NCBI RefSeq assembly: GCF_003231275.1
Contig: NZ_QKVL01000015.1
Location: forward strand, 1-64,000
From: Pseudomonas huaxiensis
GTDB lineage: Bacteria > Pseudomonadota > Gammaproteobacteria > Pseudomonadales > Pseudomonadaceae
Direction of reading: 5' to 3'
Length of the DNA stretch: 64,000 nt
The translations under genes and the position numbers were made by a program. Numbering within the stretch: the first letter of the stretch is position 1; the number at the start of each line of letters is the position of its first letter. Below, in pieces: positions 6,768 to 25,703 of this stretch. The notes under the pieces are model-generated. The model was not told where the DNA came from and did not search any database. It saw only the letters and a list, made by a program, of their open reading frames with translations.

Positions 6768-6801
6768 AGGGGCTACTTCGGAGAACAACCGGGCGATTGC
6801 A

Positions 6802-6859: not shown

Positions 6860-6867
6860 CAGGCCTG

Positions 6868-8076: not shown

Positions 8077-8164
8077 GGGACAACATCCATCGGAGGGCAG
8101 GAAAGGATCCGATTATGGCGAAATCGTTAGCAAGCGCACTATTCTTTTTACCGAGCACCTGCTT

Positions 8165-8179
8165 GTGAACAATTCTCAA
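8165..8179. promoter_or_regulatory. Possible Fur box before the first ECF sigma gene
   Basis: TGTGAAC-A-ATTCTCA fits the 7-1-7 Fur pattern (TGATAAT-N-ATTATCA) in its right half and more loosely in its left half. It lies 44 bp before the sigma-factor start. Confidence 0.45.
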
Positions 8180-8222
8180 TAACGTTAGCATCGCCGCTCA
8201 CTTCACCTGCGCGGCGCCCAGC

Positions 8223-8744
8223 ATGTCCGAGGATCAGGAAGACCGAAGCCTGGCGGGCCTCTACCAGCGCCACCGCAGCGAGCTGATGGCCTTTCTCACC
8301 CGCCGCACGCGCTGCCGCGAGACCGCCAGCGACCTGCTGCAGGATGCCTTTATCCGTCTGATGCACAGCGAGCGCGGCGACGTCGGCAACCTGCGCGCCT
8401 TCCTGTACCGCATCGCCAGCAACCTGAGCATCGACCACGCCCGCCGCAATCAGGTCCGCGGGGTCAATGACGAACAGGCGCTGGAACAATTGCTCACCGA
8501 AACCAGCCCGGAGCGCAGCGCCGTGGCGGGCAACACCCTGGCGCATCTGGAGCGGCTGATCGACGGCCTGCCCTCACCGACTCGCGAGGTTTTTCTGCTG
8601 GCCCGGGTCGAGCAAATGAGCTACAAGGACATCGCCGCGAAGCTGGGCCTGGAGCCCCGCGCCGTCGAGCGTCACTTGAACAAAGCCTTGAGCCACTGCG
8701 CAGCCGCCGCCTTGCATGCGCGCAACCAGACCGAATCGTCATGA
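8223..8744 (+). CDS. ECF sigma factor, FecI type (module 1)
   Basis: This 173-residue iron-starvation sigma factor should direct RNA polymerase to the promoter of the adjacent receptor gene when signalled. Region 2 covers about residues 10-80 (ASDLLQDAFIRLM and FLYRIASNLSIDHARR, close to the FecI/PvdS pattern). Region 4 covers about 110-160 (LPSPTREVFLLARVEQMSYKDIAAKLGLE). The stop overlaps the fecR start by 4 bases (ATGA), indicating translational coupling. A Fur-box-like site lies just upstream, so expression is probably iron-repressed. The start ATG 8223 has no strong ribosome site. Confidence 0.92.
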   Translation: MSEDQEDRSLAGLYQRHRSELMAFLTRRTRCRETASDLLQDAFIRLMHSERGDVGNLRAFLYRIASNLSIDHARRNQVRGVNDEQALEQLLTETSPERSAVAGNTLAHLERLIDGLPSPTREVFLLARVEQMSYKDIAAKLGLEPRAVERHLNKALSHCAAAALHARNQTESS

Positions 8745-9673: not shown

Positions 9674-9767
9674 GAATTTTTTTCGCGGGCGTCCGGTAAT
9701 TCCAGAACCTGCTGCGTCACACCTCCACATAAGAAGCATTACCATTTGTATTCTTGGGGGAAGACCT

Positions 9768-12191
9768 ATGCAGTACCCATTCGATTTCACCTTCAAACGC
9801 TTGCCATTGGCCCGCGCCATCCTGGCCGCGACCCTGGTCACCGCGTTGCCGGCCGGCACCCTGCTGGCCGCCGAGACCAGCACCCGCGAAGCCCAGGCCC
9901 AGCGTTTCGACTTCACCATCGGCGCCCAGCCGCTGGCGGATGCGCTCGACCAGTTCAGCGCGCAGAGCGGCTATCAGGTGATCTACCAGAGCAGCCAGGT
10001 CGGCGGCCTGCGTTCGCCCGGCGTGCAAGGCCGGCTCAGCGCCGACGAGGCCATCCAGCGCCTCACCGAAGGCACCGGCGCGCGGCTGACCCAACCCAAC
10101 GCCAACAGCTTCCTCCTCGACCTGCCGATAAACCTCGGCGGCGGCAGCCTGCAACTGGATGCCCTGAGCATTTCCGGCAAGGCGCCGGGTTCGACCACCG
10201 AAGGCACCGGGCTGTACACCACTTATTCCTCCAGCAGCTCGACGCGGCTCAACCTCAGCCCGAAGGAAACCCCGCAGTCGCTGACCGTGATGACCCGCCA
10301 GCGCCTGGATGACCAGCGCCTGACCAACCTGTCCGACGCACTGGAAGCCACCCCCGGGATCATCGTCACCCGTGACGGGCTCGGCGCGGAAAGCGACGCC
10401 TACTGGTCCCGTGGCTTTGCGGTGCAGAACTACGAAATCGACGGCGTGCCCACCGTCGCACGCATGGACAACTACACCCAGAGCATGGCCATGTACGACC
10501 GCGTCGAAGTGGTCCGTGGCGCCAGCGGCCTGATCAGCGGCATGGGCAACCCGTCGGCGACCATCAACCTGATCCGCAAGCGTCCGACCTATGAAAGCCA
10601 GGCCAGCATCACCGGCTCGGTCGGTAACTGGGATCGCTACGGCGGCGGCTTCGATGTTTCCGGCCCGCTGAATGAAAGCGGCAACGTGCGCGGGCGGCTG
10701 GTGGCGGACATCAAGAGCGAGCACGCCTGGGTCGATCGCTACAAGCTCGATGCCCAGACGCTCTACGGCATCACCGAATTCGACCTGAGCGAAGACACCC
10801 TGCTGACCGCGGGCTTCAGCTACCAGCGCACCGACGTCGACTCGCCCCTGCGCACCGGCCTGCCCACCCGCTTCGCCACGGGCGAGCGAACCAACCTGAG
10901 CCGGTCGATCAACAGCGCGCCGACCTGGTCCTACAACGACCACGTGCAGACCAGCTTCTTCGCCTCGATCGAACATCAACTGGGCAACGGCTGGAGCGGC
11001 AAGGTCGAATTCAGCCATTCGGAAAACCAGTTCGACGAGCTGTTCGGCTTCCTGATGGGCAACCTCAACACCGATGGCAGCGGCCTGTCGCAATTGCCGG
11101 TGCGTTTTTCCGGCACCCCGCGCCAGAACAACCTCGACGCCTACCTGACCGGCCCGTTCAGCCTGCTGGGGCGCGAGCATGAGCTGATCACCGGCGTGAC
11201 CCTGTCGCAGTACCGCGAGCACGTGCCGAGCTGGGGCGGCTGGCGCTATGACTACAACGCCACGCCGGATGCGGCGGTGGGCAATATCTTTGATTGGGAT
11301 GGCAGGCAGCTCAAACCGGAGTTCACCGAATCCGGCAAGTCGCGCATGGAAGAAAACCAGTACGCCGCCTACGCCACCACGCGCCTGAACCTGACCGACG
11401 ACCTGAAACTGATCCTCGGCAGCCGGGTGATCGACTGGAAACGCGACACCGAGGACACCCCCTACGACGCGCCCAAGACCGAGGTCAATCGCAAGGAAAC
11501 CGGCGTGTTCATCCCGTACACCGGGGTGGTCTACGACCTGGACGACACCTGGTCGGTCTACGCCAGCTACACCAAGATCTTCAGCCCGCAGGGTTCGTGG
11601 GTACGCGACGAAGACAACAAACCGTTCGACCCGATGGAAGGCGTGGGCTACGAGATCGGCATCAAGGGCAGCCACCTGGACGGCAAGCTGAACTCCAGCC
11701 TGGCCGTGTTCAAGCTGGAGCAAGACAACCTCGCCATCTGGCAGCATGACAACGTGTACTCGGCCGAGCAGGACACCACCTCCAGAGGTGTGGAACTCGA
11801 GCTCAGCGGCGAATTGGCAGAAGGCTGGCAAGCGGCGGCAGGTTACGTCTACACCACCACCACGGACAAGGATGACCAGCGCATCTACACCATCCTGCCG
11901 CGACACAGCCTGAAGACCTACACCAGCTACCGCCTGCCGGGCGCGCTGGACAAACTGACGGTGGGGGGCGGCGTGAACTGGCAGAGCAAGGTGGGCAACG
12001 ACCTGCACACCTTCACCCAAGGCAGCTACGCCGTGACCAACCTGATGGCGCGCTACCAGATCAGCCAGAACCTGAGTGCGACGGTGAACCTGGACAACGT
12101 GTTCGACCGAAAATACTTCAGCATGACCAGCAGCTACGGCAACTACGGCACGCCGCGCAGCCTCATGACCGGCTTCAAATACGACTTCTGA
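9768..12191 (+). CDS. TonB-dependent siderophore receptor with signalling domain (module 1)
   Basis: This 807-residue outer-membrane transducer is of the FpvA/FoxA/FhuE type. A signal peptide ends near LLAAETS. An STN signalling domain follows at about residues 45-125 (FDFTIGAQPLADALDQFSAQ). The TonB-box and plug region begins near residue 140, with ETPQSLTVMTRQRLDDQ and YDRVEVVRGASGLISGMGN. The C-terminal barrel ends in Phe (TGFKYDF), as BamA substrates do. Together with the two preceding genes it forms a complete cell-surface signalling unit. The ferric siderophore cannot be told from sequence; similarity to FhuE/FpvA suggests a hydroxamate or pyoverdine-like ligand. Confidence 0.93.
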   Translation: MQYPFDFTFKRLPLARAILAATLVTALPAGTLLAAETSTREAQAQRFDFTIGAQPLADALDQFSAQSGYQVIYQSSQVGGLRSPGVQGRLSADEAIQRLTEGTGARLTQPNANSFLLDLPINLGGGSLQLDALSISGKAPGSTTEGTGLYTTYSSSSSTRLNLSPKETPQSLTVMTRQRLDDQRLTNLSDALEATPGIIVTRDGLGAESDAYWSRGFAVQNYEIDGVPTVARMDNYTQSMAMYDRVEVVRGASGLISGMGNPSATINLIRKRPTYESQASITGSVGNWDRYGGGFDVSGPLNESGNVRGRLVADIKSEHAWVDRYKLDAQTLYGITEFDLSEDTLLTAGFSYQRTDVDSPLRTGLPTRFATGERTNLSRSINSAPTWSYNDHVQTSFFASIEHQLGNGWSGKVEFSHSENQFDELFGFLMGNLNTDGSGLSQLPVRFSGTPRQNNLDAYLTGPFSLLGREHELITGVTLSQYREHVPSWGGWRYDYNATPDAAVGNIFDWDGRQLKPEFTESGKSRMEENQYAAYATTRLNLTDDLKLILGSRVIDWKRDTEDTPYDAPKTEVNRKETGVFIPYTGVVYDLDDTWSVYASYTKIFSPQGSWVRDEDNKPFDPMEGVGYEIGIKGSHLDGKLNSSLAVFKLEQDNLAIWQHDNVYSAEQDTTSRGVELELSGELAEGWQAAAGYVYTTTTDKDDQRIYTILPRHSLKTYTSYRLPGALDKLTVGGGVNWQSKVGNDLHTFTQGSYAVTNLMARYQISQNLSATVNLDNVFDRKYFSMTSSYGNYGTPRSLMTGFKYDF

Positions 12192-12244
12192 CGCCGCATT
12201 CGGCTAAGCGGTTGATAGCGCGCAAAATTTTTTGAAATAGAGTG

Positions 12245-12273
12245 TTGACAGATATTCGTTTCAGGCGAATAAT
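12245..12273 (+). promoter_or_regulatory. Sigma-70 promoter of tRNA-Met
   Basis: TTGACA (12245-12250) and AATAAT (12268-12273) are separated by exactly 17 bases. The tRNA begins 12 bases after the -10 box. Confidence 0.8.
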
Positions 12274-12284
12274 GCGCGCCACTT

Positions 12285-12361
12285 GGCTACATAGCTCAGT
12301 TGGTTAGAGCATAGCATTCATAATGCTGGGGTCCGGGGTTCAAGTCCCTGTGTAGCCACCA
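12285..12361 (+). tRNA. tRNA-Met (CAT), elongator type
   Basis: The 77-base gene includes the encoded CCA (12359-12361). The acceptor stem GGCTACA/TGTAGCC, D stem GCTC/GAGC, anticodon stem TAGCA/TGCTG with loop TTCATAA (anticodon 12319-12321) and T loop TTCAAGT are all intact. The acceptor sequence matches elongator tRNA-Met rather than initiator (which starts CGCGGG) or tRNA-Ile2 (GGCCCCT). Confidence 0.95.
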
Positions 12362-12403
12362 TACCCCGCCCTGAAGTTGCGAAAGCAATTTTGAGGCAAA
12401 CAG

Positions 12404-12430
12404 AAAAGCCCGCCTTGCGCGGGCTTTTTT
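12404..12430 (+). terminator. Terminator of tRNA-Met
   Basis: AGCCCGC (12407-12413) and GCGGGCT (12419-12425) form a stem flanked by an A run and a run of six T ending at 12430. Confidence 0.85.
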
Positions 12431-12525
12431 GTGCCTGACTGTCAGCCCCTCCTTGCCCGAGCCATTGCGGTGAAAGCGCTGCGCTCCCCAGAAACGGATG
12501 CCCGATTGTCATAAATCGTTACATG

Positions 12526-12548
12526 GATAATAATGAGAGATATTATCA
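12526..12548. promoter_or_regulatory. Fur box before the second ECF sigma gene
   Basis: GATAATA (12526-12532) and TATTATC (12541-12547) are an inverted pair, and TGAGAGA-T-ATTATCA (12534-12548) fits the 7-1-7 Fur pattern. The site is 19 bp before the sigma-factor start and is a strong iron-repression signal by eye. Confidence 0.75.
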
Positions 12549-12566
12549 TTTGTAGCGATCGTTCTT

Positions 12567-13079
12567 ATGGACGCCGGGATCAACACGTCAGCACCACTGG
12601 ATATCGAGCATCTTTACGGCGAGCACCACGGCTGGCTAAAGGGCTGGTTACGCACCCGCACCGGCAATAGCGCCGACGCAGCGGACCTGGCCCAAGATAC
12701 CTTCATGCGTATGCTGACCCTGCGCCAACTACCCGTTCTGCGCGAACCACGCCATTATCTGGTGACCATCGCTCGCGGCCTGCTGATTGACAAGGCACGG
12801 CGCAAAGCCCTTGAGCTGGCGTATCTGGAAGTGCTGGCCGCGCGGCCGGAATCACTTCAGGTTTCCCCGGAAACCTACCACATGATTATCGAATCGTTGT
12901 TGGCCATCGACCGTCTGCTCGACGGCCTGGGCATGCGAACCCGGCAGATCTTCCTCATGGTCCAACTCGAAGGCCTTAGCTATGTGCAGGTCGGCAAGCA
13001 GTTGGGCCTGTCAGTGACCACGGTAAAGAACCACCTGGGCAAGGCGCTGATGCAATGCATTCTGCTGATGGACGATTGA
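12567..13079 (+). CDS. ECF sigma factor, FecI type (module 2)
   Basis: This 170-residue iron-starvation sigma factor has region 2 at about residues 15-85 (DLAQDTFMRMLTLRQLP, with VTIARGLLIDKARRKALE) and region 4 at about 110-165 (LGMRTRQIFLMVQLEGLSY and LGLSVTTVKNHLGKAL). It should activate the receptor gene of the same module. A well-formed Fur box overlaps the promoter region. Its TGA stop overlaps the next gene's probable TTG start (TTGA), repeating the arrangement seen in modules 1 and 3. It lies just downstream of the tRNA-Met terminator, on the same strand. Confidence 0.92.
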   Translation: MDAGINTSAPLDIEHLYGEHHGWLKGWLRTRTGNSADAADLAQDTFMRMLTLRQLPVLREPRHYLVTIARGLLIDKARRKALELAYLEVLAARPESLQVSPETYHMIIESLLAIDRLLDGLGMRTRQIFLMVQLEGLSYVQVGKQLGLSVTTVKNHLGKALMQCILLMDD

Positions 13080-14023
13080 GCGCGCCCTCTGCACGTCCAC
13101 CCGCCAAGGCACACTTGCAAGCGGCGGTGCAGTGGTACCTGACGCTCAACGATAGCGACGTCAGCCCCGCCCAGCACCTCGCGTGGCAAGAATGGCTCGC
13201 CGCCGACCCCGAGCATGCCAGCGCCTGGGCCAAGGTCGAAAAACTCCAGCAACAACTACGCGGCGTTCCCCGGGATGTCGCCTTGCCCGTGCTGTCCCAG
13301 ATGGGCGTACAGAGACGCCAGGGTCTCAAGCTGCTGGTGTTGCTGGCTGCTGGCGCGGCAACCTTCGCAGGCTATCGCAGCTCCCCCTACAGCGCAGACT
13401 TCGCTACCCGCACCGGGCAGCGACGGCAAGTGACGCTGCCTGATGGCAGCAGCCTGGAATTGAACACCGACACCCAAGTCGATATCGCCTACACCGAACG
13501 AGAGCGGCTGATTCTTCTGCGCCAGGGCGAAATCCTGCTGACCACCGCATCCGACCCGTCACCCTCGCGCCCTTTGTCAGTCCAGACGCCCCACGGCAAG
13601 GTGCTCGCCCTGGGTACCCGCTTCGATGTGCGTCTGTTGCCAGGCTTCAGCACCGTCGAAGTTGAAAAACACGCGGTAGAAGTCAGCACCCGCGACGCAC
13701 CACACCTCGTGCAGCGGGTAGAAGAAGGCTGGGCACTGACCTTCGGCGCATCCCAGATCGGCAACTTGCGCCCCTCCACCACGGGCAGCAGCGCCTGGAC
13801 ACAAGGCTTGCTGGTGGCCCTCAATTGGCGCCTTGAGGACTTCATCCGCGAACTGGCGCGTTACCGCCCCGGCTATCTGGGGTGCGCTGCTGAAGTCGCC
13901 GATTTAAGAATTTCCGGTGCGTTCCGCCTGGACGATATCGAGGGTGTCCTGGCCAACTTGCCGGTTTCGCTGCCCGTGAAGGTGCGCCATGTTTCGAGGT
14001 ACTGGGCGCGGGTCGAGCCGTAG
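13076..14023 (+). CDS. FecR-family anti-sigma factor / sigma regulator (module 2)
   Basis: This 315-residue inner-membrane regulator has a cytosolic DUF4880-like N-terminus (WYLTLNDSDVSPAQHLAWQEW). One transmembrane helix lies near residues 80-97 (GLKLLVLLAAGAATFAGY). The periplasmic FecR domain follows (FATRTGQRRQVTLPDGSSLE, HGKVLALGTRFDVRLL), with a C-terminal receptor-contact segment. The TTG at 13076 is chosen because it overlaps the sigma stop as TTGA and gives exactly the length of the module 3 FecR. An in-frame ATG at 13055 would add seven residues. The receptor gene follows after 118 bp. Confidence 0.88.
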   Translation: MSAPSARPPAKAHLQAAVQWYLTLNDSDVSPAQHLAWQEWLAADPEHASAWAKVEKLQQQLRGVPRDVALPVLSQMGVQRRQGLKLLVLLAAGAATFAGYRSSPYSADFATRTGQRRQVTLPDGSSLELNTDTQVDIAYTERERLILLRQGEILLTTASDPSPSRPLSVQTPHGKVLALGTRFDVRLLPGFSTVEVEKHAVEVSTRDAPHLVQRVEEGWALTFGASQIGNLRPSTTGSSAWTQGLLVALNWRLEDFIRELARYRPGYLGCAAEVADLRISGAFRLDDIEGVLANLPVSLPVKVRHVSRYWARVEP

Positions 14024-14141
14024 GCGCAAAACCGGCGTGCAGACAAGCGAATGATTCATCTTGCCGATTCCATTTTTCGTTCGGCTCATCAGTAGAGCGG
14101 TCCATCAGCCGCCTTTACTGCAACGGCATAGGAAGTCATGC

Positions 14142-16610
14142 ATGAGCCACCCACGTCCCCTGAATAAAACCGCTTTGCGGCTGGGCCTTCATTCCAGGTT
14201 GTTGAGCATCAGCCTCGGCGGGGCCCTGTGCGCCACCACCCTTGCCCTCCCCGCCTGGGCGCAACAGGCCAGTGAGCAAATCGAGTACAACATTGCTGCA
14301 GGGCCACTGGATGCAGCGCTCACCCAGTTCGCGGCGGCCAGCGGCGTGACCTTGTCGTTTGGCTCAACGCAAACTGAAGGGTTGGTGACGGCGGGCATCA
14401 AAGGTCGATATTCCTTCGATGAAGGCATCGCACGGCTGCTGGCCAACAGCGGGATGCAGGCACGCCAGGAGGGGACGGGACGCTACAGCCTGGTCAAAAC
14501 GCAAAGCGGTTCGACGCTGGAACTCGGCGCCACCAACATCAACGGCGTAGTCCTGGGCGCCACGACGGAAAATACCGGCTCTTACACGACCGGTCCGATG
14601 CACTCCGCCACCAAGCTGGGCCTGACGATGCGCGAGACGCCACAATCGGTGTCGGTCGTCACCCGCCAGCGCATGGATGACCGGGGCATGCAGGACTTGC
14701 ACGATGTGATCAGAGACGTCCCCGGAATCACCGTGGAAAAAGACGGCCCCGAGCGCCCGACCTACTACGCCCGTGGCTTTCAGGTCGACAACATCATGTA
14801 CGACGGCCTGCCGACCACGGTGTCCAGTTACACGGCCCGCGACACCATTGCCGCCGCCGACACTGCCATGCTCGATCGGGTCGAAGTGGTGCGGGGTGCC
14901 ACTGGCTTGATGACCGGTTCCGGTAGCCCTTCAGCTGCCATCAACCTGGTGCGCAAGCGGCCAACCCGCGACGCCCAGGTCAGCGTTACCGGCTCTGCCG
15001 GAACCTGGGATGACTACCGTGGCGAACTGGATGCCTCCGGCGCCCTCAACGACAGCGGCAGCCTGCGCGGCCGTGCGGTGACAAGCTATCAGGTCAAAGA
15101 CAGCTTCCAGGATGTGGTGAACAAAGAACATGCCCTGTTCTACGCCATTGGCGAGGCTGACCTGAGCGATAGCACCACCCTGACCTTGGGCGCCTCGAAC
15201 CAGAACCTGAACAACAACACTTCATGGGGCGGCGTTCCCACGGCCAGCGATGGCGGTGATCTGAACCTGTCGCGCTCCACCTACCTGGGCAACGATTGGG
15301 GCCGCTGGGACCAGGACAACAACAGCCTCTTCAGCGAGCTGGAACACCGCTTCGACAACGGCTGGAAACTGCGCATAGCCGCCACCAAGATGTGGTCGAA
15401 GGTTGATCTGCTGGCGTCCTATGTCACTGCGGGCGCGGTCGACGGCAGCTTCGACCAGATGACGGGCAAGTTCAAATACACCAACGACCAGACCAGCTAC
15501 GACATGTTTGCCAGCGGGCCTTTCCAGTTGTTCGACCGGGAACATGAACTGGTAGTCGGCGCAAGCCGCCGCAAAGAGAACTTCAACGGCAATGGCACCA
15601 CGGTACGGTCGGCGTCGAATATCGACATCTACAACTGGAACCCCCACGTCACGCCCATCCCCATGTTCAACATGGGCGCCTGGCAACAGCAGAGCGAAAC
15701 CGAACAGACCGGTACTTACATCACTGGCCGTTTCAGCCTGGCCGACCCGCTGCACCTGATCCTTGGCGGACGCCTGGACTGGTACGACTACGAGATCAAG
15801 AACGCCAGCAACATCGCCGGCGTCAACCCGACATCCAGCCAGTACGACGTCACACGCAACCTGACCAAGTACGCCGGCCTGATCTACGACCTCAACGACA
15901 CCTACTCGGTGTATGTCAGCTACACCGACATCTTCACCCCCCAGGGTGTAGTGGATGCCGATAACAAGGCGATCAAGCCGATCGTTGGCAAGAACTACGA
16001 AGCCGGCATCAAGGCCGAGTACCTCAATGGGGCTTTGAACGCCAGTGCCGCGATCTTCCGTATCGACCAGGAAAACCGCGCCTCTGTAATCAATACCCCG
16101 GGGGTCTGCCAGTCACCGGCCGGCGTTTCCTGCTACCAGGCATCAGGCGAGGTGCGCAGCGAAGGTATAGAACTGGAAGTCACCGGAGCGCTGACCGAGC
16201 GCTGGCAAATGGCAGCCGGCTACACCTACAACTCGGCCAAATACCGCAAGGATGCCAACGCGGATAACGAAGGCCGGCTGTTCGCCAGCGACTTGCCCCG
16301 CCATCTGTTCAAGGCCAGCACCACGTACCAGCTGCCGGGTGAGTTCGAGCGCTGGCGGATCGGTGGCGGCATCACGGCCCAGAACACCATCTACAACCAG
16401 GGCAGTGGCTACCGCATCGAGCAGAAGGCGTACCGCATTGTCGATCTGATGGCGGGGTACAAAGTCTCGGAGAACGTCGACCTGCGCCTGAACGTCAACA
16501 ACGTGTTCGACAAGAAGTATTACCAGAGCATCAACAGCAATACGTGGAACGGTTTCAACGTCTATGGCGACCCACGCAACGCGATGATGACGGTGCGCTG
16601 GTCACTTTGA
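14142..16610 (+). CDS. TonB-dependent siderophore receptor with signalling domain (module 2)
   Basis: This is an 822-residue outer-membrane receptor. ATG 14142 is chosen over an in-frame ATG at 14061 because GGAAG lies 6 bases upstream and a normal signal peptide follows, cleaved near LPAWAQQ. The STN domain covers about residues 50-125 (YNIAAGPLDAALTQFAAASG). The plug starts near residue 160 (RETPQSVSVVTRQRMDDRG) and includes LDRVEVVRGATGLMTGSGS. The barrel ends MMTVRWSL. A cysteine pair in an extracellular-loop candidate (GVCQSPAGVSCYQ) may form a disulfide. It resembles FpvA/FhuE-type receptors, but the ligand is undetermined. Confidence 0.93.
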   Translation: MSHPRPLNKTALRLGLHSRLLSISLGGALCATTLALPAWAQQASEQIEYNIAAGPLDAALTQFAAASGVTLSFGSTQTEGLVTAGIKGRYSFDEGIARLLANSGMQARQEGTGRYSLVKTQSGSTLELGATNINGVVLGATTENTGSYTTGPMHSATKLGLTMRETPQSVSVVTRQRMDDRGMQDLHDVIRDVPGITVEKDGPERPTYYARGFQVDNIMYDGLPTTVSSYTARDTIAAADTAMLDRVEVVRGATGLMTGSGSPSAAINLVRKRPTRDAQVSVTGSAGTWDDYRGELDASGALNDSGSLRGRAVTSYQVKDSFQDVVNKEHALFYAIGEADLSDSTTLTLGASNQNLNNNTSWGGVPTASDGGDLNLSRSTYLGNDWGRWDQDNNSLFSELEHRFDNGWKLRIAATKMWSKVDLLASYVTAGAVDGSFDQMTGKFKYTNDQTSYDMFASGPFQLFDREHELVVGASRRKENFNGNGTTVRSASNIDIYNWNPHVTPIPMFNMGAWQQQSETEQTGTYITGRFSLADPLHLILGGRLDWYDYEIKNASNIAGVNPTSSQYDVTRNLTKYAGLIYDLNDTYSVYVSYTDIFTPQGVVDADNKAIKPIVGKNYEAGIKAEYLNGALNASAAIFRIDQENRASVINTPGVCQSPAGVSCYQASGEVRSEGIELEVTGALTERWQMAAGYTYNSAKYRKDANADNEGRLFASDLPRHLFKASTTYQLPGEFERWRIGGGITAQNTIYNQGSGYRIEQKAYRIVDLMAGYKVSENVDLRLNVNNVFDKKYYQSINSNTWNGFNVYGDPRNAMMTVRWSL

Positions 16611-16694
16611 GGCCAGCGTCCAGTGGCTAATCGAATCGTTCAAGGTGCTGCAGGTGGCTGAGAAGTAACAAACAAAAAAGCCGGCGGTTTGGGT

Positions 16695-16814
16695 AATGCC
16701 AGTCAGTTAAACCTGTTGAGGCCCTTCGCGAGCAAGCTCGCTCCTACACTGTAGGAGCGAGCTTGCTCGCGAAGGGCTGCAAAGCGGCCCCAATGGGTTT
16801 AACTGACAGGCATT
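16695..16814. repeat. REPIN-like palindrome downstream of the module 2 receptor
   Basis: A perfect 28-bp inverted repeat (16721-16748 / 16750-16777) carries the core CGCGAGCAAGCTCGCTCC. It is nested inside outer arms AATGCCAGTCAGTTAAACC (16695-16713) and their near-perfect complement at 16795-16814. It fills most of the 16611-16870 gap between two convergent genes and could also act as a bidirectional terminator. Confidence 0.8.
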
Positions 16815-16870
16815 ATGCGGTTTGAGCGGTATTTGCCAGCGATGAGACCTTTTCGGTACAACAAAGCCAA

Positions 16871-19168
16871 TCAGACCAACGACTTATCCCCCCGCAACTC
16901 CCGCGCCGCCGCCACCATGTTCACCAGCGCCGCCTCGGTCTCTGGCCAGCCCCGCGTCTTCAGCCCGCAGTCCGGGTTGACCCACAGACGCTCCGCCGGA
17001 ATCCGCTTCGCCGCCTTGCGCAGCAGTTTGACGATCTCTTCCTTGGCCGGCACGCGTGGCGAGTGGATGTCGTAGACGCCCGGGCCGATCTCGTTCGGGT
17101 AGTCGAACTTCTCGAAGGCCTCCAGCAACTCCATGTCCGAACGTGAGGTCTCGATGGTGATGACGTCGGCGTCCATCGCGGCGATCGACTCAATCACGTC
17201 GTTGAACTCGCTGTAGCACATATGGGTGTGGATCTGGGTTTCGTCACGCACACCTGAGGCGCACAGGCGGAAGGCTTCGGTCGCCCAATCCAGATAATGT
17301 CCCCACGCGCTCTGGCGCAGCGGCAGGCCTTCGCGGAAGGCGGCTTCGTCAATCTGCACGATCTTGATGCCGGCGGCTTCCAGGTCCACCACTTCGTCGC
17401 GGATCGCCAGCGCCAACTGCCGCGCCTGGACTTCACGGCTCACGTCTTCCCGCGGGAATGACCACATCAGCATAGTCACCGGGCCGGTCAGCATGCCCTT
17501 CATCACTTTGTCGGTCAGGCCCTGAGCGTAGCGAATCCACTCGACGGTCATGGCTTTCGGACGGCTCAGGTCACCGAAGATCACTGCCGGTTTCACGCAG
17601 CGCGAACCGTAGCTCTGCACCCAGCCAAAACGGGTGAAGACATAGCCGTCGATCTGCTCGGCGAAGTACTCGACCATGTCGTTGCGCTCGGCTTCACCGT
17701 GCACCAGCACGTCGAGGCCCAGTTGCTCCTGGATCTGCACGGCGTGGCGGATCTCGCTCTGCATCGCTTCGACGTAATCGGACTCGGTCAGCTTGCCCTG
17801 CTTGAAGGACTGCCGCGCCAGGCGGATCGCCGAAGTCTGTGGGAAAGAACCGATAGTGGTGGTCGGGAACGCGGGCAGATCGAGGCCGGCACGTTGCTTG
17901 GCGATGCGCTGTTCGAAAGCGGAAAGGCGCTGGCTGTCAGCAGGTTTGATCGCCGCCAGACGCGCCTGTACCGCTGGCTTGTGAATACGGGGCGAGGCGG
18001 CGCGGCTGGCCTGCACGGCATGGCTCTGTGCCAGGGCAGTAATCACGTCAGCAGCTTCCGGCTCGTTGATGGCCTTGGTCAGCACAGCGACTTCCTGGCA
18101 TTTCTGCACGGCGAAGGCCAGCCAGCTTTTCAGCTCGGTATCCAGCTTGTCTTCGCGGCCCAGGTCCACCGGGCTGTGCAGCAGCGAGCAGGACGGCGCG
18201 ACCCAGAGACGGTCACCCAAGCGAGCCGCAGCGTGGCGCAGGACGTCCAGTGCTTTTTCCAGGTCGCAGCGCCAGACGTTACGGCCGTTGACCACACCCA
18301 GGGACAACACTTTGTAAGCCGGCAGACGATCGAGGATGGTCGGGTACTGCTCCGGCGCGCGGACCAGATCGATGTGCAGGCCCTCCACCGGCAGATTGGC
18401 GGCCAGGCCGAGGTTGTCTTCCAGGCCACCGAAGTAGGTGGCGATCATCTTCTTCAGCGGCGCCCGCTGCAGGATGTTGTAAACGCGCTCGTAGGCATTC
18501 TTCCAATCCTGCGGCAGGTCGAGGACCAGAATCGGCTCATCGATCTGCACCCACTCTACGCCCTGTTCGGCCAGGCGATTGAAAATCTGGTCGTACAGCG
18601 GCAACAGGCGATCGACCAGATCGAGCTTGTCGAACTCGACGCCCTTGGTCTTGCCCAGCCACAGGTAGGTCAGCGGGCCGATCACCACCGGCTTGACCGC
18701 ATGGCCCAGGGCCTTGGCTTCTTCGACTTCATCGAACAGTTGCTCCCAGCTCAGTTCGAACTGCTGATCGTCGCTGAACTCAGGCACCAGATAGTGGTAG
18801 TTGGTGTCGAACCACTTGGTCATTTCCTGGGCATGGGCGCCGCCGCAACAACCGCCACTGACGCCACGGGCCATGGCGAACAGGGTCTGCAGGGTCGGCT
18901 TGGCATCGCCGTGGCTGCGGAAGCGCTCGGGGATCACGCCGAAGGTCAGCGAGTGGGTCAGCACCTGGTCGTACCAGGCGAAGTCGCCGACCGGCAGCAG
19001 CTCGATACCGGCGTCTTTCTGTGCCTGCCAATGGCTGGCGCGCAGATCGCGGCCAACAGCGCGCAGACCGGCTTCATCCAGTTCGCCTTTCCAGAACGCT
19101 TCCTGTGCCTTTTTCAGTTCACGGTCGCGTCCGATGCGTGGAAAGCCCAGGTTATGTGCCAAAGCCAT
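16871..19168 (-). CDS. metE: Cobalamin-independent methionine synthase MetE
   Basis: This 765-residue cytosolic enzyme transfers the methyl group of 5-methyltetrahydropteroyltri-glutamate to homocysteine. Both halves are intact. The N-terminal half begins [20 protein letters not shown]. In the C-terminal barrel the zinc ligands are at His649, Cys651, Glu673 and Cys734 (HTHMCY, ITIETS, NPDCGL), each offset by eight from E. coli MetE. ATG 19168 matches the family N-terminus; the frame is open further upstream. The Shine-Dalgarno GAGGGAA lies in a hairpin. It is divergent from a MetF-like gene, and no metR gene is adjacent. Confidence 0.97.
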
Positions 19169-19174
19169 GTGTAG

Positions 19175-19203
19175 TTCCCTCACCCTAAAAATGAATGAGG
19201 GAA
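19175..19203 (-). promoter_or_regulatory. Hairpin covering the metE ribosome-binding site
   Basis: TTCCCTCA (19175-19182) and TGAGGGAA (19196-19203) form a perfect 8-bp stem with a 13-base loop. In the metE mRNA the promoter-distal arm of the hairpin is the Shine-Dalgarno GAGGGAA, 6 bases before the ATG. This suggests translational control; the trigger is unknown. Confidence 0.5.
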
Positions 19204-19220
19204 TTGTCGGGATTCGCATT

Positions 19221-19239
19221 AAATGAGACAAACTCATTT
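19221..19239. promoter_or_regulatory. MetR-like dyad in the metE / metF-like gap
   Basis: AAATGAG (19221-19227) and CTCATTT (19233-19239) form a perfect dyad with a 5-base spacer. The inner TGAG-N5-CTCA resembles the enteric MetR site TGAA-N5-TTCA. It lies between the divergent genes. MetR binding is an inference. Confidence 0.45.
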
Positions 19240-19386: not shown

Positions 19387-20862
19387 ATGAATGTGTTGAA
19401 ACAGGCGCTACGGCAAAAGCAGTTCGTGTGCGTCATGGAGTTCGTGCCCAAGCCGCAGCGTTTTGCCGCGTTCGAACAGGTGATGGCGCGTAGCGAGTTC
19501 CGCGGCTGGCCAATGATCGCGGCCATCGGCGATCGCGTGGGCAGCGCGTTCGACCTGTCGCCCGAAGAAGCCTTCACCACCCTCACCCGGCCCATCCCCG
19601 CCCTGCTGCACTTCTCCGGCAAGAACCGCGAGCGCCAGGACCTGCTGGCGCAACTGGAACGGATGGACGCCCTCGGCCTCGACCAGTTGCTGATGCTCAC
19701 CGGCGACCGCCTGCCGGGCCACGAACCCGGCCAACAGTCGGTGCGCTACCTGGAATCGGTACCGGCGTTGCAGATCGTTCGTCAGGCGCGGCCGGACTGG
19801 CTGCTCGGCGCCGCCCTCAACCCGTTCAAGTACCGCGAGGAAGAAGGCGGCGCGCAGTATTTCAAGGCCGAAAAGAAGCTGGCCGCAGGCGCGGACTTCA
19901 TGACCCTGCAACTGGGTTTCGACATGGACAAGTTCCGCGAAGCCTTCGACTGGATGAGCCGACAACCCTCACCCAAGCCGCTGCTGGCCTGCATCATGAG
20001 CCTCACCCGCGGGCGGGCGAGCATGCTCGAACAGGTCGCCGGGGTCACCGTTTCGCCGTCGATGCACGCGCTGATGGCGGCGGAAGAAGCCGTCTCGAAA
20101 GACCATGCCCAGGCCCGCAGCGTCGAGCGGCTGGCGCTGCAGATCATCGGGCTGCGGTTGATCGGCTATGCCGGCATCCACCTCTCCGGCATCCATGAGG
20201 AGCGACAGTTGCAGGCGCTGGAACAGGCGCTCGATCACTGGGAAACGAAGGTCCACACCTCGGAGCAATGGGCACAGGCCTGGGCCGCCAGTTGGCAAAT
20301 GCCGGGCGTACCGCCAGTGACGTTCCATCCGCCCGGCATGGACTGGCGCGCGGGCGAATCGCGGGTCAGCGCCTCGCCCACGGAAAAGCTCCGCTATCAC
20401 TTGCTGTCCGGTTTTCACGCGCAACTGTTCAGTCGCACCACCCTGCTGAGCCGCGCCTTCGGCTGGGCGGTGCAGCGACCGCTGTGGTCAACAGCCACGG
20501 GAGCACGCTGGCTGCACCGCATCGAACGCAGCCTGAAAAGGCCCTTGGTGGGGTGCGACACCTGCGGCCGCTGTCGCCTTGAAGACACCCTCTACACCTG
20601 CCCGGAAACCTGCCCGAAAGGCCTGGCCAACGGGCCTTGCGGCGGCACCCAGCTGAACCGTTGCGAGTTTGGCGACCGGGAGTGCATTCACAGCATCAAG
20701 TACCGCATCGCCAAAGCCGTCGGGCAGACAACGGTATTGAGCGAGCGGCTGATTCCCTGCGTGGAAGTGGGTGGACGGCATCAGAGTTCGTGGCCGCAGT
20801 GGTTCGAGGTGCAGACGCCGGCAGTGCCTTCTCGGGAATCCGTGACAACCATGGCACCGTGA
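19387..20862 (+). CDS. MetF-like methylenetetrahydrofolate reductase fused to a Cys-rich MTHFR_C domain
   Basis: This is a 491-residue protein. Residues about 1-300 resemble the flavin TIM-barrel of methylenetetrahydrofolate reductase (VCVMEFVPKPQR at the start, LLMLTGDRLPG as the MetF LxLxGD strand, LLGAALNPF, ADFMTLQLGFD). Residues about 389-434 hold eight cysteines (C390, C393, C396, C405, C409, C418, C426, C433) in GCDTCGRC and CPETCPKG arrangements, typical of the MTHFR_C/MetV domain that may bind zinc or an Fe-S cluster. It is longer than MetF (about 280-300). Being divergent from metE, it may supply or recycle one-carbon folate for methionine synthesis, or act in a demethylation pathway. 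The function is not established. Confidence 0.8.
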   Translation: MNVLKQALRQKQFVCVMEFVPKPQRFAAFEQVMARSEFRGWPMIAAIGDRVGSAFDLSPEEAFTTLTRPIPALLHFSGKNRERQDLLAQLERMDALGLDQLLMLTGDRLPGHEPGQQSVRYLESVPALQIVRQARPDWLLGAALNPFKYREEEGGAQYFKAEKKLAAGADFMTLQLGFDMDKFREAFDWMSRQPSPKPLLACIMSLTRGRASMLEQVAGVTVSPSMHALMAAEEAVSKDHAQARSVERLALQIIGLRLIGYAGIHLSGIHEERQLQALEQALDHWETKVHTSEQWAQAWAASWQMPGVPPVTFHPPGMDWRAGESRVSASPTEKLRYHLLSGFHAQLFSRTTLLSRAFGWAVQRPLWSTATGARWLHRIERSLKRPLVGCDTCGRCRLEDTLYTCPETCPKGLANGPCGGTQLNRCEFGDRECIHSIKYRIAKAVGQTTVLSERLIPCVEVGGRHQSSWPQWFEVQTPAVPSRESVTTMAP

Positions 20863-21297: not shown

Positions 21298-22896
21298 TCA
21301 ATTCACCTCCAGGCTGGCGCTCGCGGCGCGCCGGGCGGGGCGTTCCTTGGGCGGCTGGCCGAGTTTCCAGCAACACCCGCCGAGCAAGGCGCCGATCAGT
21401 ACGGTGGTGATTTCCAGGAGGATGAAGTCGCCACGGTTGACGGTATGGAAGTTCAGCAACGGCAGGGTCAGGCACAGCAGCGCCGCCAGGCCGAGCTGTT
21501 CCTGCCAGGCACGCAGCCATGGCCGGACGATGGCGTGGCCGAGGGTCGCCAGCCAGATCAGGAAGAACACCCGCACCTCCCAGCCGCCGCGCTGCGCCAG
21601 TTCCACCGGCAGCAGGCGGTTGGCCCAGAGCAGGCCGATGCAGGCCAGCGACAGGCCGGCCACCACGGCGACGTTGAGCCGCTCGGCAACATGGTAGAGC
21701 AGCGCGCCGAGGGCGCCTTCGCTGTCGTGTCGGCGGCGGCGCTTGACGGTGAACAGCACCAGTCCGGTCGCGATCATCGCGCAACTCGCCAGGCCACAAA
21801 GGAAGTACAGCCAGCGCATCGGATAACCGCCGAACTGGGCGAAGTGCATGCCGGACATCACACGCTGGGTCAGCAGGCTCGGGCGGCTCTCGGCGGGCGC
21901 GCGCAGCACTTTGCCGCTGACGCCGTCGAAGACCATGCTCTGACCCTTGGTCAGTTCGATGCGGTTGCCGAGGATCGGCCGTACTTCGATACGCGCGTCG
22001 CTGCGCCCAGGGTTCTGGATCGACAACCCGGACAACGGGCCCATGGCCTTTTCCGCCTCGGCGAGTAGCGGCGCCAAGGGGGTCAACGGTGCCGCTTCAC
22101 CACGGGCCCTGCCCGCCTCACCGCCGCGTCCGCCGCCCGCATGTTCGCCGCGCGACTGCCCCTGCTGAGCAGCGTTTGCCGGCGCCGCATGTTGCGCCGC
22201 CGGCATGCCGCGCAAGGCCCGGTTCAGCGCATCGCGATCGCCATCGAACAGCGCGTCGGACGCCGCCGGCATATAGATCAGGTAGAAAATCACCAGCCCG
22301 GTGTAGGTGATCATCAGGTGGAAGGGCAGCACCAGCACGGCCGTGGCGTTGTGCGCGTCGAGCCAGGAGCGCTGGCCCTTGGCCGGGCGGAAGGTGAAGA
22401 ACTCCTTGAAGAATTTCTTGTGGATAACGATGCCGCTGATCAGCGCCGCGAGCATCGCCATGGCCGCCAGCCCGACCACCCAGATGCCGATGTTGCGCGG
22501 TAGGTTGAGGGTAAAGTGGAAGCGGAAGAAGAAACCGCCGCCCGCGGTTTCGCGCACGTCCAGCGGCTCGCCGGTGTGTGGGTCGAGCGCGGTGCCGCCG
22601 CCACGGCGCTGCTCGCCGGCGGAAACGGTGAGGTTCGGCGAACGCTCGCCAGGCAGGCCGATATTCCAGGCGCTGGCGCCGGGATGATTGCGTTGCAGGT
22701 AATCCAGCCCGCGCTGCACGGCCTCGTCCTGACTCAGATTGTGGGTCGGGATTTCCGGGCGCATCCAGCCGTCGATTTCCTTGTCGAACACCGCGAGGGT
22801 ACCGGTCAGGAAAATCGCAAACAGGACCCAGCCGAAGATCAGCCCGCTCCAGGTGTGCATCCACGAGAGCGATTGGGTGATGGTCTTCGGTTTCAT
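21298..22896 (-). CDS. PepSY-domain inner-membrane protein (PiuB-like)
   Basis: This 532-residue protein has PepSY-associated transmembrane helices. The first is WMHTWSGLIFGWVLFAIFLTG near residues 12-32 and carries the conserved HxWxG pattern. Others lie near residues 140-165, 190-215, 350-370 and in a C-terminal cluster. A periplasmic PepSY region (ALDPHTGEPLDVRETAGGGF) and an Arg/Gly/Ala-rich low-complexity stretch (RGEHAGGGRGGEAGRARGEA) are visible. Such proteins are proposed periplasmic ferric-siderophore reductases. The ATG overlaps the DUF3649 stop as ATGA. The operon runs DUF3649-PepSY-DUF3325, downstream of the FepA-like receptor on the same strand. Confidence 0.85.
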   Translation of the reverse strand: MKPKTITQSLSWMHTWSGLIFGWVLFAIFLTGTLAVFDKEIDGWMRPEIPTHNLSQDEAVQRGLDYLQRNHPGASAWNIGLPGERSPNLTVSAGEQRRGGGTALDPHTGEPLDVRETAGGGFFFRFHFTLNLPRNIGIWVVGLAAMAMLAALISGIVIHKKFFKEFFTFRPAKGQRSWLDAHNATAVLVLPFHLMITYTGLVIFYLIYMPAASDALFDGDRDALNRALRGMPAAQHAAPANAAQQGQSRGEHAGGGRGGEAGRARGEAAPLTPLAPLLAEAEKAMGPLSGLSIQNPGRSDARIEVRPILGNRIELTKGQSMVFDGVSGKVLRAPAESRPSLLTQRVMSGMHFAQFGGYPMRWLYFLCGLASCAMIATGLVLFTVKRRRRHDSEGALGALLYHVAERLNVAVVAGLSLACIGLLWANRLLPVELAQRGGWEVRVFFLIWLATLGHAIVRPWLRAWQEQLGLAALLCLTLPLLNFHTVNRGDFILLEITTVLIGALLGGCCWKLGQPPKERPARRAASASLEVN

Positions 22897-23180
22897 CTCA
22901 GGGTCTCCATCAGTTGCGGCCAGAAGCCGATCACCGCCAACGGCACTGCCAGCGCCAGCCCGGCCCAGACGCGGGCGGCGCTGCGGCAGGCGAAGGCCCA
23001 GAGGATAAAGGCGGTGTAGACGGCGAAGGACAGCAGGCTGGCGCTGATCAGGGCATCGACCTTGTCCAGCGGCAACAGCCGGGCCAGGGCGGCGGTGAAG
23101 GCGTAGGTGAAGGCGTAACCGCCCAGAATCGCGGCGACGATGCGGGAGAGCATCGGCCAGGAGAAGGTTGTTGTTTTCAT
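22893..23180 (-). CDS. DUF3649-like small membrane protein
   Basis: This 95-residue protein has about three hydrophobic segments (MLSRIVAAILGGYAFTYAFT; ALISASLLSFAVYTAFILWA; VWAGLALAVPLAVIGFW). It is the first gene of the iron-linked membrane operon, and ATG 23180 has GAGG about 7 bases upstream. Its stop overlaps the PepSY start by 4 bases. Proteins of this size and layout (DUF3649, sometimes called iron transporter) occur next to PepSY reductase-like proteins. The role is unknown. A REPIN separates it from the upstream FepA-like receptor gene. Confidence 0.7.
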   Translation of the reverse strand: MKTTTFSWPMLSRIVAAILGGYAFTYAFTAALARLLPLDKVDALISASLLSFAVYTAFILWAFACRSAARVWAGLALAVPLAVIGFWPQLMETLR

Positions 23181-23220
23181 GGGGGGCCTCATCAAAAAGA
23201 GGACGGAGCCGGGCCGCTTT

Positions 23221-23309
23221 GTGCTGGCCTCATCGCTGGCAAGCCAGCTCCCACAGGCCGGCGCACACCGATCCTGTGGGAGCTGGCTTGCCAGCGATGG
23301 GGCCAGCAC
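23221..23309. repeat. REPIN (GTGGGAGCTGGCTTGCC type)
   Basis: Two 37-base arms (23221-23257 / 23273-23309) are inverted copies with one mismatch. They contain the core TCGCTGGCAAGCCAGCTCCC. The element lies between the TonB receptor stop and the DUF3649 start. Confidence 0.85.
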
Positions 23310-23364
23310 AGGCGACCCCGATGCCCCTCCCTGACCATCACGGCGGCCAGGGAGGCAGGTCACA

Positions 23365-25584
23365 TCAGAAGCTGGTCGTCACCGACGCATAGAACGCACG
23401 ACCCGGTTCGTTGTACGTGCTCGCCCCCGAGCTGGTGCCGGCGCCTTCGCGGTACACGCGCTTGTCGAACAGGTTGTTGATGCCCGCACCGAACGACAGG
23501 TTCTTGTTCACTTCATACGTGCCGCCAACACCCCAGACATGGTACGGATCGAGGGTCTTCAGCTCGTTCTGCGCGGTGACGTCGACGTCACGGGTCGGGT
23601 TGAAGCGGCGCGGTTCCTGCTTGCCGTAGTAGGTGCCGGTCAGGCTCAGGGCCAGGGCCTGGGTCACCTGCCAGTCGAGCATGGTGTTGACGGTGTATTC
23701 CGGCACCACCGACAGCGGGTTGCCGTCGCTGTCTTCGTTGGAATCCATGTAGGTGAGGTTGCTGTTCCAGCTCAGGATCTCGCCGGCCTCGCCCAGCAGC
23801 GGCACGCCGATGTTGCCTTCCCAGCCCTTGACCACGGCATCCTTGGCGTTGTCCCAGCGCAGGATCGCTTCGTTGGCCGAGGTGCGTCCGGCGAGGTCGT
23901 TGGACGAGACGATCTTGTTCTCGTAGTCGTTGCGGAAGTAGGTCAGGCCGGCGCTCCAACCGTCGCGGGCAAAGCTGATGCCCAGCTCTTTGTTGATGCT
24001 GATTTCCGGGTCGAGGTTGGCGTTGCCCACCACGTAGCAGCCCGTCGAACTCAGGCTCGGCGCACAGCCGTTGCCATTGCTGCGGTACAGGTAGTTGGGG
24101 TTGGACTGGTACAGGTTCGGCGCCTTGAAGGCCCGGGCGACGCCACCTTTGAGGGTGATGTCATCGGTGAGCTTGTACGAGGTGTTCAGGCTCGGGCTCC
24201 AGTTGGCGCCGAACTGGTCGTGGTGGTCCAGGCGCAGGCCCGGCGTCAGGTACCAGTTGGGTGTGAGCTCGATGTTGTCTTCGGCATACACCGCCATGAT
24301 GGTGGAGTCCATGTCGGTGGCCCGCGCGCCCGCAGCGGAGTTCGGCAGGGTGGTGCCGATGGCGCGGTTCATGGTGCTCGGGTCGTCCAGTTCCTGGTAA
24401 TTCCACTCGGCACCGAGGGTCAGGGTCTGCGCCACCAGCACCTGCAGCGGGATGTCCAGTTGGCCCTGGACCAGGTAGCTGTCGTAGGTGCTCAGGGACT
24501 TGTCGTTGCCACTGATATCGCCGTCGACCGAACCGGTCTGGCCTTCCAGCAGGCGATCGTTGCGGGTCTTCTCGTACTGCGCGAGCAGGCGCGAGGTGCC
24601 GAATTCCCAGTCACCACGGTGGGTGACGGAGAAGTTCTGCCGGTACATCGTGTTGGTTTCGCGACCGAGCCACTGGTTGACCGTGCTGCCCGGGGTCAAC
24701 GAATCAGTGCCGCCGGTGCCGACGTCACCGGTGTAGATGTTGCCCTGGCGGCTGAAGCCGGTTTCGAAATCGAGGGTCTGCTGGTTGTCCAGCGCCCAGC
24801 TCAGCAGCGCGTTGACGTCCTTGTTGCGTACGCCTTCGCGGCCTGCGGCGAGGGACGCACCGGAAGCAGTGTCGGTGTGAGCCTGGTTGATGTCGGCGTC
24901 GTCGGCATCGGTCTTGTTCAGGTTGCCGTAGACGCGGAAGGTCAGCGAGTCGGTCAGCGGGCCGGCGAGGCTGAAGGTGGTGCGCTTGGTCACGCCCTCG
25001 GCGTCGTCTTCGGGCAGATTGGTGAAGGCCGAGATGCTGCCGGTCAGGGCCTGGGTCGGACGCTTGGTGATGATGTTGACCACGCCGCCCATGGAGCCGG
25101 AACCGTAACGCGCCGCGGCCGGGCCGCGCAGGACTTCGATGCTCTCGACTTCGTTGGCCGGCACCCAGTTGCTGTCGCCACGGGTGTCGCGTTCGCCGGA
25201 GCGGGTGTAGCGCACCGAGTTGCGTGACGTGACCGGCTTGCCATCGATCAGGATGAGGGTGTTTTCCGGGCCCATGCCGCGCAGGTCGATCTGCCGGTTG
25301 TTGCCACGGGTACCGCTGGCGCTGTTGCCAGTGAGGTTGACGCCGGGCATCTTGCGGACGATCTCGGACAGGTCGTTGACCGGCGGGCGTTTCTTGATGT
25401 CTTCAGCGGTAATCAGAGAGACGCCGGGCGCCTGCTTCAGCTCTTCCGCGGCAGTGGCCACCACATGGGTGTCGCTCAGCTCCAGCGCCTCTGCGGTCTG
25501 CGCGTCGGGCGCGGCCAGCAGGGTCGAAGGGGATGCGGCCAACAGGGCCAGGCAAAGATGGTTGAGCTTGAATCGGGGTTGCAT
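23365..25584 (-). CDS. TonB-dependent catecholate siderophore receptor, FepA/PfeA/PirA family
   Basis: This is a 739-residue outer-membrane receptor without an STN domain. The signal peptide MQPRFKLNHLCLALLAASP is cleaved near LLAAPDA. The plug has the FepA-type block GNNRQIDLRGMGPENTLILI and DGKPVTSRNSVRYTR, and ARYGSGSMGGVVNIITKRP at its end. The barrel includes a likely disulfide loop (NGCAPSLSSTGCYV) and ends FYASVTTSF. The length matches PfeA and PirA (about 742-746), which take up ferric enterobactin and related catecholates. The ATG at 25584 has GGAG upstream. The kinase and regulator just upstream on the same strand give the pfeRSA/pirRSA order. Confidence 0.92.
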   Translation of the reverse strand: MQPRFKLNHLCLALLAASPSTLLAAPDAQTAEALELSDTHVVATAAEELKQAPGVSLITAEDIKKRPPVNDLSEIVRKMPGVNLTGNSASGTRGNNRQIDLRGMGPENTLILIDGKPVTSRNSVRYTRSGERDTRGDSNWVPANEVESIEVLRGPAAARYGSGSMGGVVNIITKRPTQALTGSISAFTNLPEDDAEGVTKRTTFSLAGPLTDSLTFRVYGNLNKTDADDADINQAHTDTASGASLAAGREGVRNKDVNALLSWALDNQQTLDFETGFSRQGNIYTGDVGTGGTDSLTPGSTVNQWLGRETNTMYRQNFSVTHRGDWEFGTSRLLAQYEKTRNDRLLEGQTGSVDGDISGNDKSLSTYDSYLVQGQLDIPLQVLVAQTLTLGAEWNYQELDDPSTMNRAIGTTLPNSAAGARATDMDSTIMAVYAEDNIELTPNWYLTPGLRLDHHDQFGANWSPSLNTSYKLTDDITLKGGVARAFKAPNLYQSNPNYLYRSNGNGCAPSLSSTGCYVVGNANLDPEISINKELGISFARDGWSAGLTYFRNDYENKIVSSNDLAGRTSANEAILRWDNAKDAVVKGWEGNIGVPLLGEAGEILSWNSNLTYMDSNEDSDGNPLSVVPEYTVNTMLDWQVTQALALSLTGTYYGKQEPRRFNPTRDVDVTAQNELKTLDPYHVWGVGGTYEVNKNLSFGAGINNLFDKRVYREGAGTSSGASTYNEPGRAFYASVTTSF

Positions 25585-25703
25585 CGACGACGCTCCTTTC
25601 GCAATGAGGGCATGCAGAAAAGGAGCGAGAGGAATGGAAAAACGATGACATCCGACTCGCCCCAAGTCTGCCCGGGACGAGCGCGAATGCTATAGATTCG
25701 TAA

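Follow-up and report, generated by a model that had tools for sequence, protein, structure and literature searches.

A fused MetF-MetV type gene of Pseudomonas huaxiensis and its genomic tie to B12-independent methionine synthesis

A gene of Pseudomonas huaxiensis encodes a single-chain MetF-MetV protein that resembles the two-subunit enzymes of acetogens. Its catalytic residues are intact, it coexists with a canonical MetF, and in one branch of its family the gene is tied to genes for B12-independent methionine synthesis. We propose that the fused enzyme is an accessory of this synthesis that does not use NADH and acts on 5-methyltetrahydrofolate (methyl-THF), most likely oxidizing it to methylene-THF, a reading to which we give a probability of roughly 0.38; the direction of the reaction and the electron partner are what we infer. 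The mesX-mesD-queH context of the gene is a new point, beyond what the window alone (the whole 64,000-nucleotide stretch analyzed, from contig NZ_QKVL01000015.1) could show. A folate enzyme that travels with MesX-MesD and with the B12-independent queH gene offers a handle on the fate of the methyl-folate pool in B12-free bacteria. Oxidation of methyl-THF by this enzyme, if it occurs, would give bacteria a way out of the methylfolate trap and would put the MetF-MetV couple, familiar from acetogens, to a new use in aerobes.

The fused gene and its protein

The gene, for which we coined the label metFV (single-chain MetF-MetV), is an open reading frame with an ATG start at 19387..20862 on the plus strand and encodes 491 amino acids. 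The original prediction of a MetF-like barrel fused to a Cys-rich MTHFR_C domain was borne out by a Pfam search, in which both domains scored above their cut-offs: PF02219, the MetF/MTHFR TIM barrel, at residues 4-275 (19396..20211, plus strand; E 6.7e-15, 55.6 bits against a cut-off of 24), and PF12225, the DUF5981/MTHFR_C (MetV-type) domain, at residues 376-458 (20512..20760, plus strand; E 1.2e-18, 67 bits against a cut-off of 23). Eight cysteines, predicted to be Fe-S and/or Zn ligands, lie at residues 390, 393, 396, 405, 409, 418, 426, and 433 (20554..20685, plus strand), as first noted, and do not vary among the 35 proteins aligned, namely, the window protein and proteins from 34 of 59 GTDB loci. 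Both the catalytic residues and all eight cysteines are conserved down to 37-43% identity. By cut-off and fold, the protein belongs to the PF02219 superfamily and it carries the DUF5981/MetV domain of MetVF-type enzymes; its MetF and MetV parts form one open reading frame and not two subunits, and it scores 39.9 bits against TIGR00676 (canonical MetF), below the equivalog cut-off of 293.7. A genome-wide search gave no second DUF5981 match.

In an alignment with the genome's own MetF, residues E18, H75, D107, K164, Q175, and D179 of the window protein fall at catalytic or flavin positions of MetF. None of the 36 rows differs from that MetF at the positions equivalent to E28, H88, D120, K172, and Q183, which we take to be the catalytic and flavin residues in E. 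coli numbering; the flavin- and folate-binding residues on which the original prediction depended are thereby kept. Other MetF positions differ in the fused proteins (R118 is Thr or Ser, and H156 is Asn). The position of Phe223, which in E. coli MetF presumably stacks NADH, is Leu, Ile, or Met in 35 of the 36 rows and Phe in one. This loss suggests that the fused enzyme is probably not NADH-linked and makes an electron donor other than NADH, as originally proposed, probable on the strength of the alignment.

An AlphaFold2 model built from 35 family sequences (pLDDT 84.8, pTM 0.86) is predicted to have the MTHFR fold. In a structure comparison whose rows span mainly residues 1-286, the barrel of the model matched Thermus MTHFR 1v93 (Z 25.9, rmsd 3.0, 276 aligned residues, 18% identity), with E. 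coli, human, and yeast MTHFR at Z 23-25 and lower scores (Z 17-19) for FAD-independent mycobacterial enzymes and the Sphingobium SYK-6 enzyme. The C-terminal domain folded on its own gave a low-confidence model (pLDDT 64.8, pTM 0.56).

The metE neighbor and a MetR-type dyad

As the original prediction stated, metFV is divergent from metE, the gene for cobalamin-independent methionine synthase (16871..19168, minus strand, with a probable ATG at 19168; the open reading frame extends over 16871-19237; TIGR01371, 1111 bits). A MetR-type dyad, ATGAGACAAACTCAT, at 19223..19237 conforms to the MetR consensus ATGAA-N5-TTCAT of PMC4239095, is the sole ATGAR-N5-YTCAT within the 64-kb window, and is most likely the metE operator. 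A dyad that serves both genes, as had been suggested, is unlikely. A like dyad was found at 12 of 12 metE or metE-remnant loci of relatives. It sits 56 bp from the metE ATG in the window and 55-59 bp from it at the 11 relative loci with an identified metE start, and its spacing from the fused gene is variable; at 10 of 10 GTDB loci that have no metE, the 250 bp preceding the fused gene contain no such dyad. It is retained in two genomes of the genus, G156 and G288, in which metE is not intact. The looser motif TGAR-N5-YTCA occurs in 15 of 66 stretches upstream of the fused gene versus 0.98 expected from Markov shuffles, many of these stretches being from near relatives. The MetR-type dyad mostly tracks metE and not metFV. 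At four P. putida-type loci (L018, L019, L030, and L044), metE remnants consisting of N-terminal parts only lie, with the dyad, beside an intact fused gene.

A MetR-type box, TGAAACCAATTCA, is also present 133 bp upstream of the genome's own mesX, and such boxes precede mesX at 13 of 23 loci tested (the own genome plus 22 of 24, L032 and L034 being left out), a count made without a shuffle control. The MetR targets given in PMC4239095 include metE and PF08908-metE2, the latter equated here with mesX-mesD by family; given this list and the boxes at both genes, metE and mesX probably form one regulon. A gene called "metF2" is named in the Pseudomonadaceae MetR regulons of the same source; if it is the fused gene, part of its regulatory link may already be in print.

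No riboswitch match was found within the window, and a cobalamin or other riboswitch upstream of the fused gene was rejected. Among eight relatives scanned, the sole riboswitch was an AdoCbl element in P. agarici (L020), ∼4 kb downstream of the fused gene's 3' end; there (13364-13717), the riboswitch and a small ORF pair, resembling cobalt transporter genes by eye, lie just past the mesXD-flavin reductase genes. The metE region of the window is flanked at 13055-16610 and 21298-25665 by a FecR-like gene, TonB-dependent receptors, and a PepSY-type membrane gene (by eye).

Gene context and distribution of metFV

Scanning the GTDB species genomes with a pattern yielded 59 loci, 47 at ≥56% identity and 12 at 38-42%. 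The P. putida-type group, which includes the nearest kin of the window gene, accounts for 22 of the 47; here, the fused gene lies beside metE at 8 loci (with a metE match split in two at L012), beside a metE remnant at 4, and beside neither at 10. In L004, metE is gone and the PepSY-type and TonB-receptor downstream flank is syntenic with that of the window. The records of L004 and L009 are titled Paucimonas and Pantoea; the tree places their fused genes among those of Pseudomonas, and the records may be mislabeled.

The other 25 loci come from Burkholderia, Paraburkholderia, Pandoraea, Herbaspirillum, Collimonas, Achromobacter, Alcanivorax, Nitrosomonas, a Burkholderiales MAG, and three Pseudomonas. 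At 24 of these 25, mesX, mesD, and a flavin reductase gene occur within 8 kb of the fused gene; the 25th, L024, is at a contig edge and retains the flavin reductase. The queH gene is on 11 of the 24 mesXD loci, with fragments in L022. Identities of MesX, MesD, the flavin reductase, and QueH were confirmed by family search on single examples, and for a single example of the LysR regulator at the locus the best NCBIfam match was MetR, below cut-off. QueH is the B12-independent counterpart of QueG (PMC10378866), so the fused gene shares its locus with two functions that substitute for B12 enzymes. Two fused genes at mesX-bearing loci, L124 6871-8364 (G569) and L023 8001-9428, have an in-frame stop and are perhaps pseudogenes.

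At the thresholds used, none of mesX, mesD, and the flavin reductase gene was found at the 12 loci of 38-42% identity, several of which are short contigs. One of them, L052 (41% identity), has FolD, GcvT-like, and PanB-like (ketopantoate hydroxymethyltransferase) genes on its locus (1927-17350), together with ABC-transporter ORFs recognized by eye, perhaps another C1 pathway; an Armatimonadota relative is convergent with a formate-THF ligase gene (L056 9532-11256).

The window genome (7.26 Mb, 241 contigs) encodes three methionine synthases, MetE, MetH (C112), and MesD (C79). Its mesXD genes (C79) are not adjacent to the fused gene (C57), and at this mesXD locus (L088 8257-11827) a gene for an FAD-dependent oxidoreductase (DAO) lies just before mesX. 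QueH has no match in the genome. The sole other MTHFR is a canonical metF on C185 (302 bits), the gene that the original prediction had proposed to look for elsewhere in the genome.

Among 298 Pseudomonas genomes, 44 carry a full-length fused gene, 64 carry MesX (in one, G291, as an interrupted match), and 29 carry both, a co-occurrence with a Fisher p of 2.6e-12 that is not corrected for phylogeny; 35 of the 64 MesX genomes lack the fused gene. (An initial tally of 47 carriers was reduced by dropping G082, G179, and G221, whose distant matches were in separate pieces.) With metE counted as intact where its best E-value in the genome table was 0, MesX is present in 23 of the 25 carriers without intact metE and in 6 of the 19 with it; conversely, 13 of the 15 carriers without MesX have intact metE. 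Because all carriers except G045 and G077 have MesX or intact metE, the fused gene stays whichever B12-independent synthase is present. Canonical MetF was found in 44 of 44 carriers. Replacement of metF by metFV was accordingly rejected, for these genomes as for the window genome, and the suggestion of a second route feeding methionine is doubtful.

A class sample of 369 genomes gave 30 profile matches, of which 7 were counted as carriers (G000, G352, G363, G471, G569, and G599 at full length, G569 with its in-frame stop, plus the fragment G305) and the rest were split or partial. MesX was over the cut-off in 6 genomes and occurred together with the fused gene in 2 (G000 and G569), that is, in 2 of 7 carriers.

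Relatives at 36.5-39.9% identity are carried by 24 Acinetobacter records in a plasmid collection. In 21 of the 24, mesX is ≤5 kb from the fused gene, and in 20, queH adjoins it. Two of the three records without a close mesX are chromosome-sized A. baumannii sequences in which mesX is far away; the third is a record of 11.6 kb that, judging by the matches listed, may or may not carry mesX. A mobilizable plasmid (L083 8001-17340) encodes, in order, the fused protein, QueH, MesX, methionine synthase, flavin reductase, TauE/SafE, and a LysR regulator, and the order in L126 (9001-14248) is alike as far as the flavin reductase. The mobilizable Acinetobacter plasmids look like a portable B12-independence set of fused gene, queH, mesX, mesD, and flavin reductase. 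Across the whole collection, MesX was found in 210 records and a match of any kind to the fused protein in 36; at least 174 of the 210 MesX records are without one.

In a tree of 53 rows, where the label "mesXD" included L024 with its flavin reductase only, the genes linked to mesXD fall into one supported set and the Acinetobacter branch, a long one whose placement is unsure. The linkage takes 2 changes on the tree, compared with a shuffled mean of 10.2, and is found both on that branch and in the Burkholderiales/Pseudomonas clade. With the midpoint root, which is no independent evidence, the mesXD linkage is probably the older arrangement and the metE neighborhood the later one.

Proposed role, alternatives, and known systems

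We propose the following mechanism. When B12 is short, MetH would be idle and methyl-THF would accumulate. MesD would make methionine without consuming methyl-THF, so the trap should be acute where MesD is the synthase. The fused enzyme, with a flavin- and folate-binding barrel, would work the pair of 5-methyl-THF and 5,10-methylene-THF, most likely in the oxidative direction, with electrons reaching or leaving the flavin via the metal center of the eight-cysteine domain (probably Fe-S clusters and/or Zn) and not via NADH. Methyl-THF would be returned to methylene-THF, and the methylfolate trap would be relieved. Such an oxidative, non-NADH MTHFR would explain the coexistence with MetF, the linkage to mesXD and queH, and the survival of the gene after metE loss. 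The argument is weaker beside metE because MetE itself consumes methyl-THF, and the oxidative reading fits the metE neighborhood less well than the mesXD and queH linkage. Sulfonamide-treated metH mutants of E. coli and P. aeruginosa accumulate methyl-folate (PMC5070874); P. aeruginosa encodes both metE and metH (PMC13059711), and E. coli, the other trap-forming species, also encodes metE (PMC7857596).

Further points in favor of trap relief are the folate genes on the loci of more distant relatives (L052 and L056) and the ability of one type II MetVF enzyme to oxidize methyl-THF (PMC8760232). Against it, PP_4638 of P. putida, probably a member of the family, had no significant phenotype in the 101 fitness experiments described in PMC7857596, and MesD plus MesX function in E. 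coli, even in the absence of metF, without any fused gene being supplied (PMC7857596). MesX is also far commoner than the fused gene, carriers without MesX exist in both surveys, the 12 distant loci, several of them short contigs, show none of the mesXD genes, the window gene lies apart from mesXD, and the fused gene has no MetR box of its own at the 10 metE-less GTDB loci. More tentative is a broader form of the proposal, in which mesX, mesD, flavin reductase, queH, and the fused gene would constitute a portable B12-free one-carbon module of aerobes, sometimes on mobilizable plasmids, and the fused enzyme would be an MTHFR run in reverse through its Fe-S domain, oxidizing 5-methyl-THF and springing a methylfolate trap that MesD cannot relieve.

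A backup methylene-THF reductase, which would supply 5-methyl-THF to MetE or MetH with electrons from reduced flavin (via the flavin reductase) or ferredoxin in place of NADH, is possible but doubtful. Consistent with it are the kept catalytic Glu and Asp, the divergent metE, whose product needs methyl-THF, the flavin reductase neighbor in 24 loci, and the reduction of methylene-THF by type II MetVF enzymes with ferredoxin and, in one case, also FADH2 (PMC8760232). However, every carrier already has a canonical MetF, the fused gene persists where metE is lost, and the partner to which it is most strongly linked is MesD, a synthase that requires MesX and oxygen, does not depend on metF or methyl-THF, and has a flavin reductase nearby (PMC7857596). 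Furthermore, the fitness of P. putida metF tracks that of metH (r 0.96), from which the authors of PMC7857596 conclude that PP_4638 provides no MTHFR activity in those conditions.

A direct accessory of MesX-MesD, which would prepare or recycle a methyl precursor or a flavin for MesX and share the flavin reductase as its electron source, is unlikely. The near-constant mesX, mesD, and flavin reductase neighborhood outside the P. putida-type group, the close mesX of the Acinetobacter records, and the presence of this linkage on both parts of the midpoint-rooted tree, one of them a long branch, speak for it; the sufficiency of MesD plus MesX in E. coli and the 15 Pseudomonas carriers without MesX, 13 of them with intact metE, speak against it.

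A role in oxidizing methyl groups released by a demethylation pathway, which had also been suggested and would be expected for a split MetF and DUF5981 pair beside MttB-type methyltransferases, is improbable: such a pair in S. meliloti does lie among methyltransferase, corrinoid, and methyl-THF:cobalamin methyltransferase genes, and L052 shares its locus with FolD, GcvT-like, and PanB-like genes, yet by eye no demethylase or corrinoid gene was recognized next to the fused gene in the clade of the window gene, where some ORFs are unidentified. That metFV is a decaying paralogue without an important role is equally improbable, since the lack of a phenotype for PP_4638, the patchy distribution (44 of 298 in the genus), and the two copies with stop codons (G569 and L023) are set against catalytic residues and cysteines conserved across distant relatives and retention of the gene while the neighboring metE is lost. 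Taken as a whole, the original interpretation holds for the barrel and MetV domains, the kept residues, and the probably non-NADH donor and is doubtful for the shared dyad, the second methionine route, and demethylation.

In the open-access literature, where subscription papers could be missed, we found no paper besides PMC7857596 that deals with MTHFR and MesX together. That paper describes ACIAD1783 and PP_4638 as diverged MetF relatives, probably with another function, that are 39% identical over their full length; they probably belong to the fused-gene family. For ACIAD1783, it reports that the N-terminal part of PF02219 is missing and considers another function likely; in contrast, the catalytic Glu has an aligned counterpart both in the window protein and in a relative from an Acinetobacter plasmid. 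In A. baumannii, B12 strongly represses the DUF1852 gene (log2 about −8) and also represses a flavin reductase gene (log2 −2.5) (PMC12892962).

Compared with canonical MetF (TIGR00676), the window protein has the same catalytic residues and a fold close to that of solved flavin MTHFRs (Z 23-26) but has an extra eight-cysteine domain and falls short of the family score (39.9 versus 293.7 bits). The S. meliloti pSymB pair shares LTGD and NPF motifs, a DUF5981 partner, and the Glu, Asp, Lys, and Gln catalytic positions with it but is encoded by two genes and has Gln, not His, at the H88 position. In architecture, the window protein resembles the type II MetVF of acetogens, with its MetF barrel and DUF5981/MetV-type Cys domain. 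As described in PMC8760232, MetV carries Fe-S and predicted Zn, and the type II MetVF enzymes do not accept NAD(P)H and usually draw electrons from ferredoxin; that of C. formicoaceticum could also be supplied by FADH2 and oxidized methyl-THF with FAD or rubredoxin. By analogy, the window protein, which has lost the NADH-stacking residue, should pass electrons through its eight-cysteine domain. Unlike acetogen MetVF, it is one fused chain in aerobic Proteobacteria that also have a canonical MetF, and its family is linked to B12-independent methionine synthesis rather than to acetogenesis.
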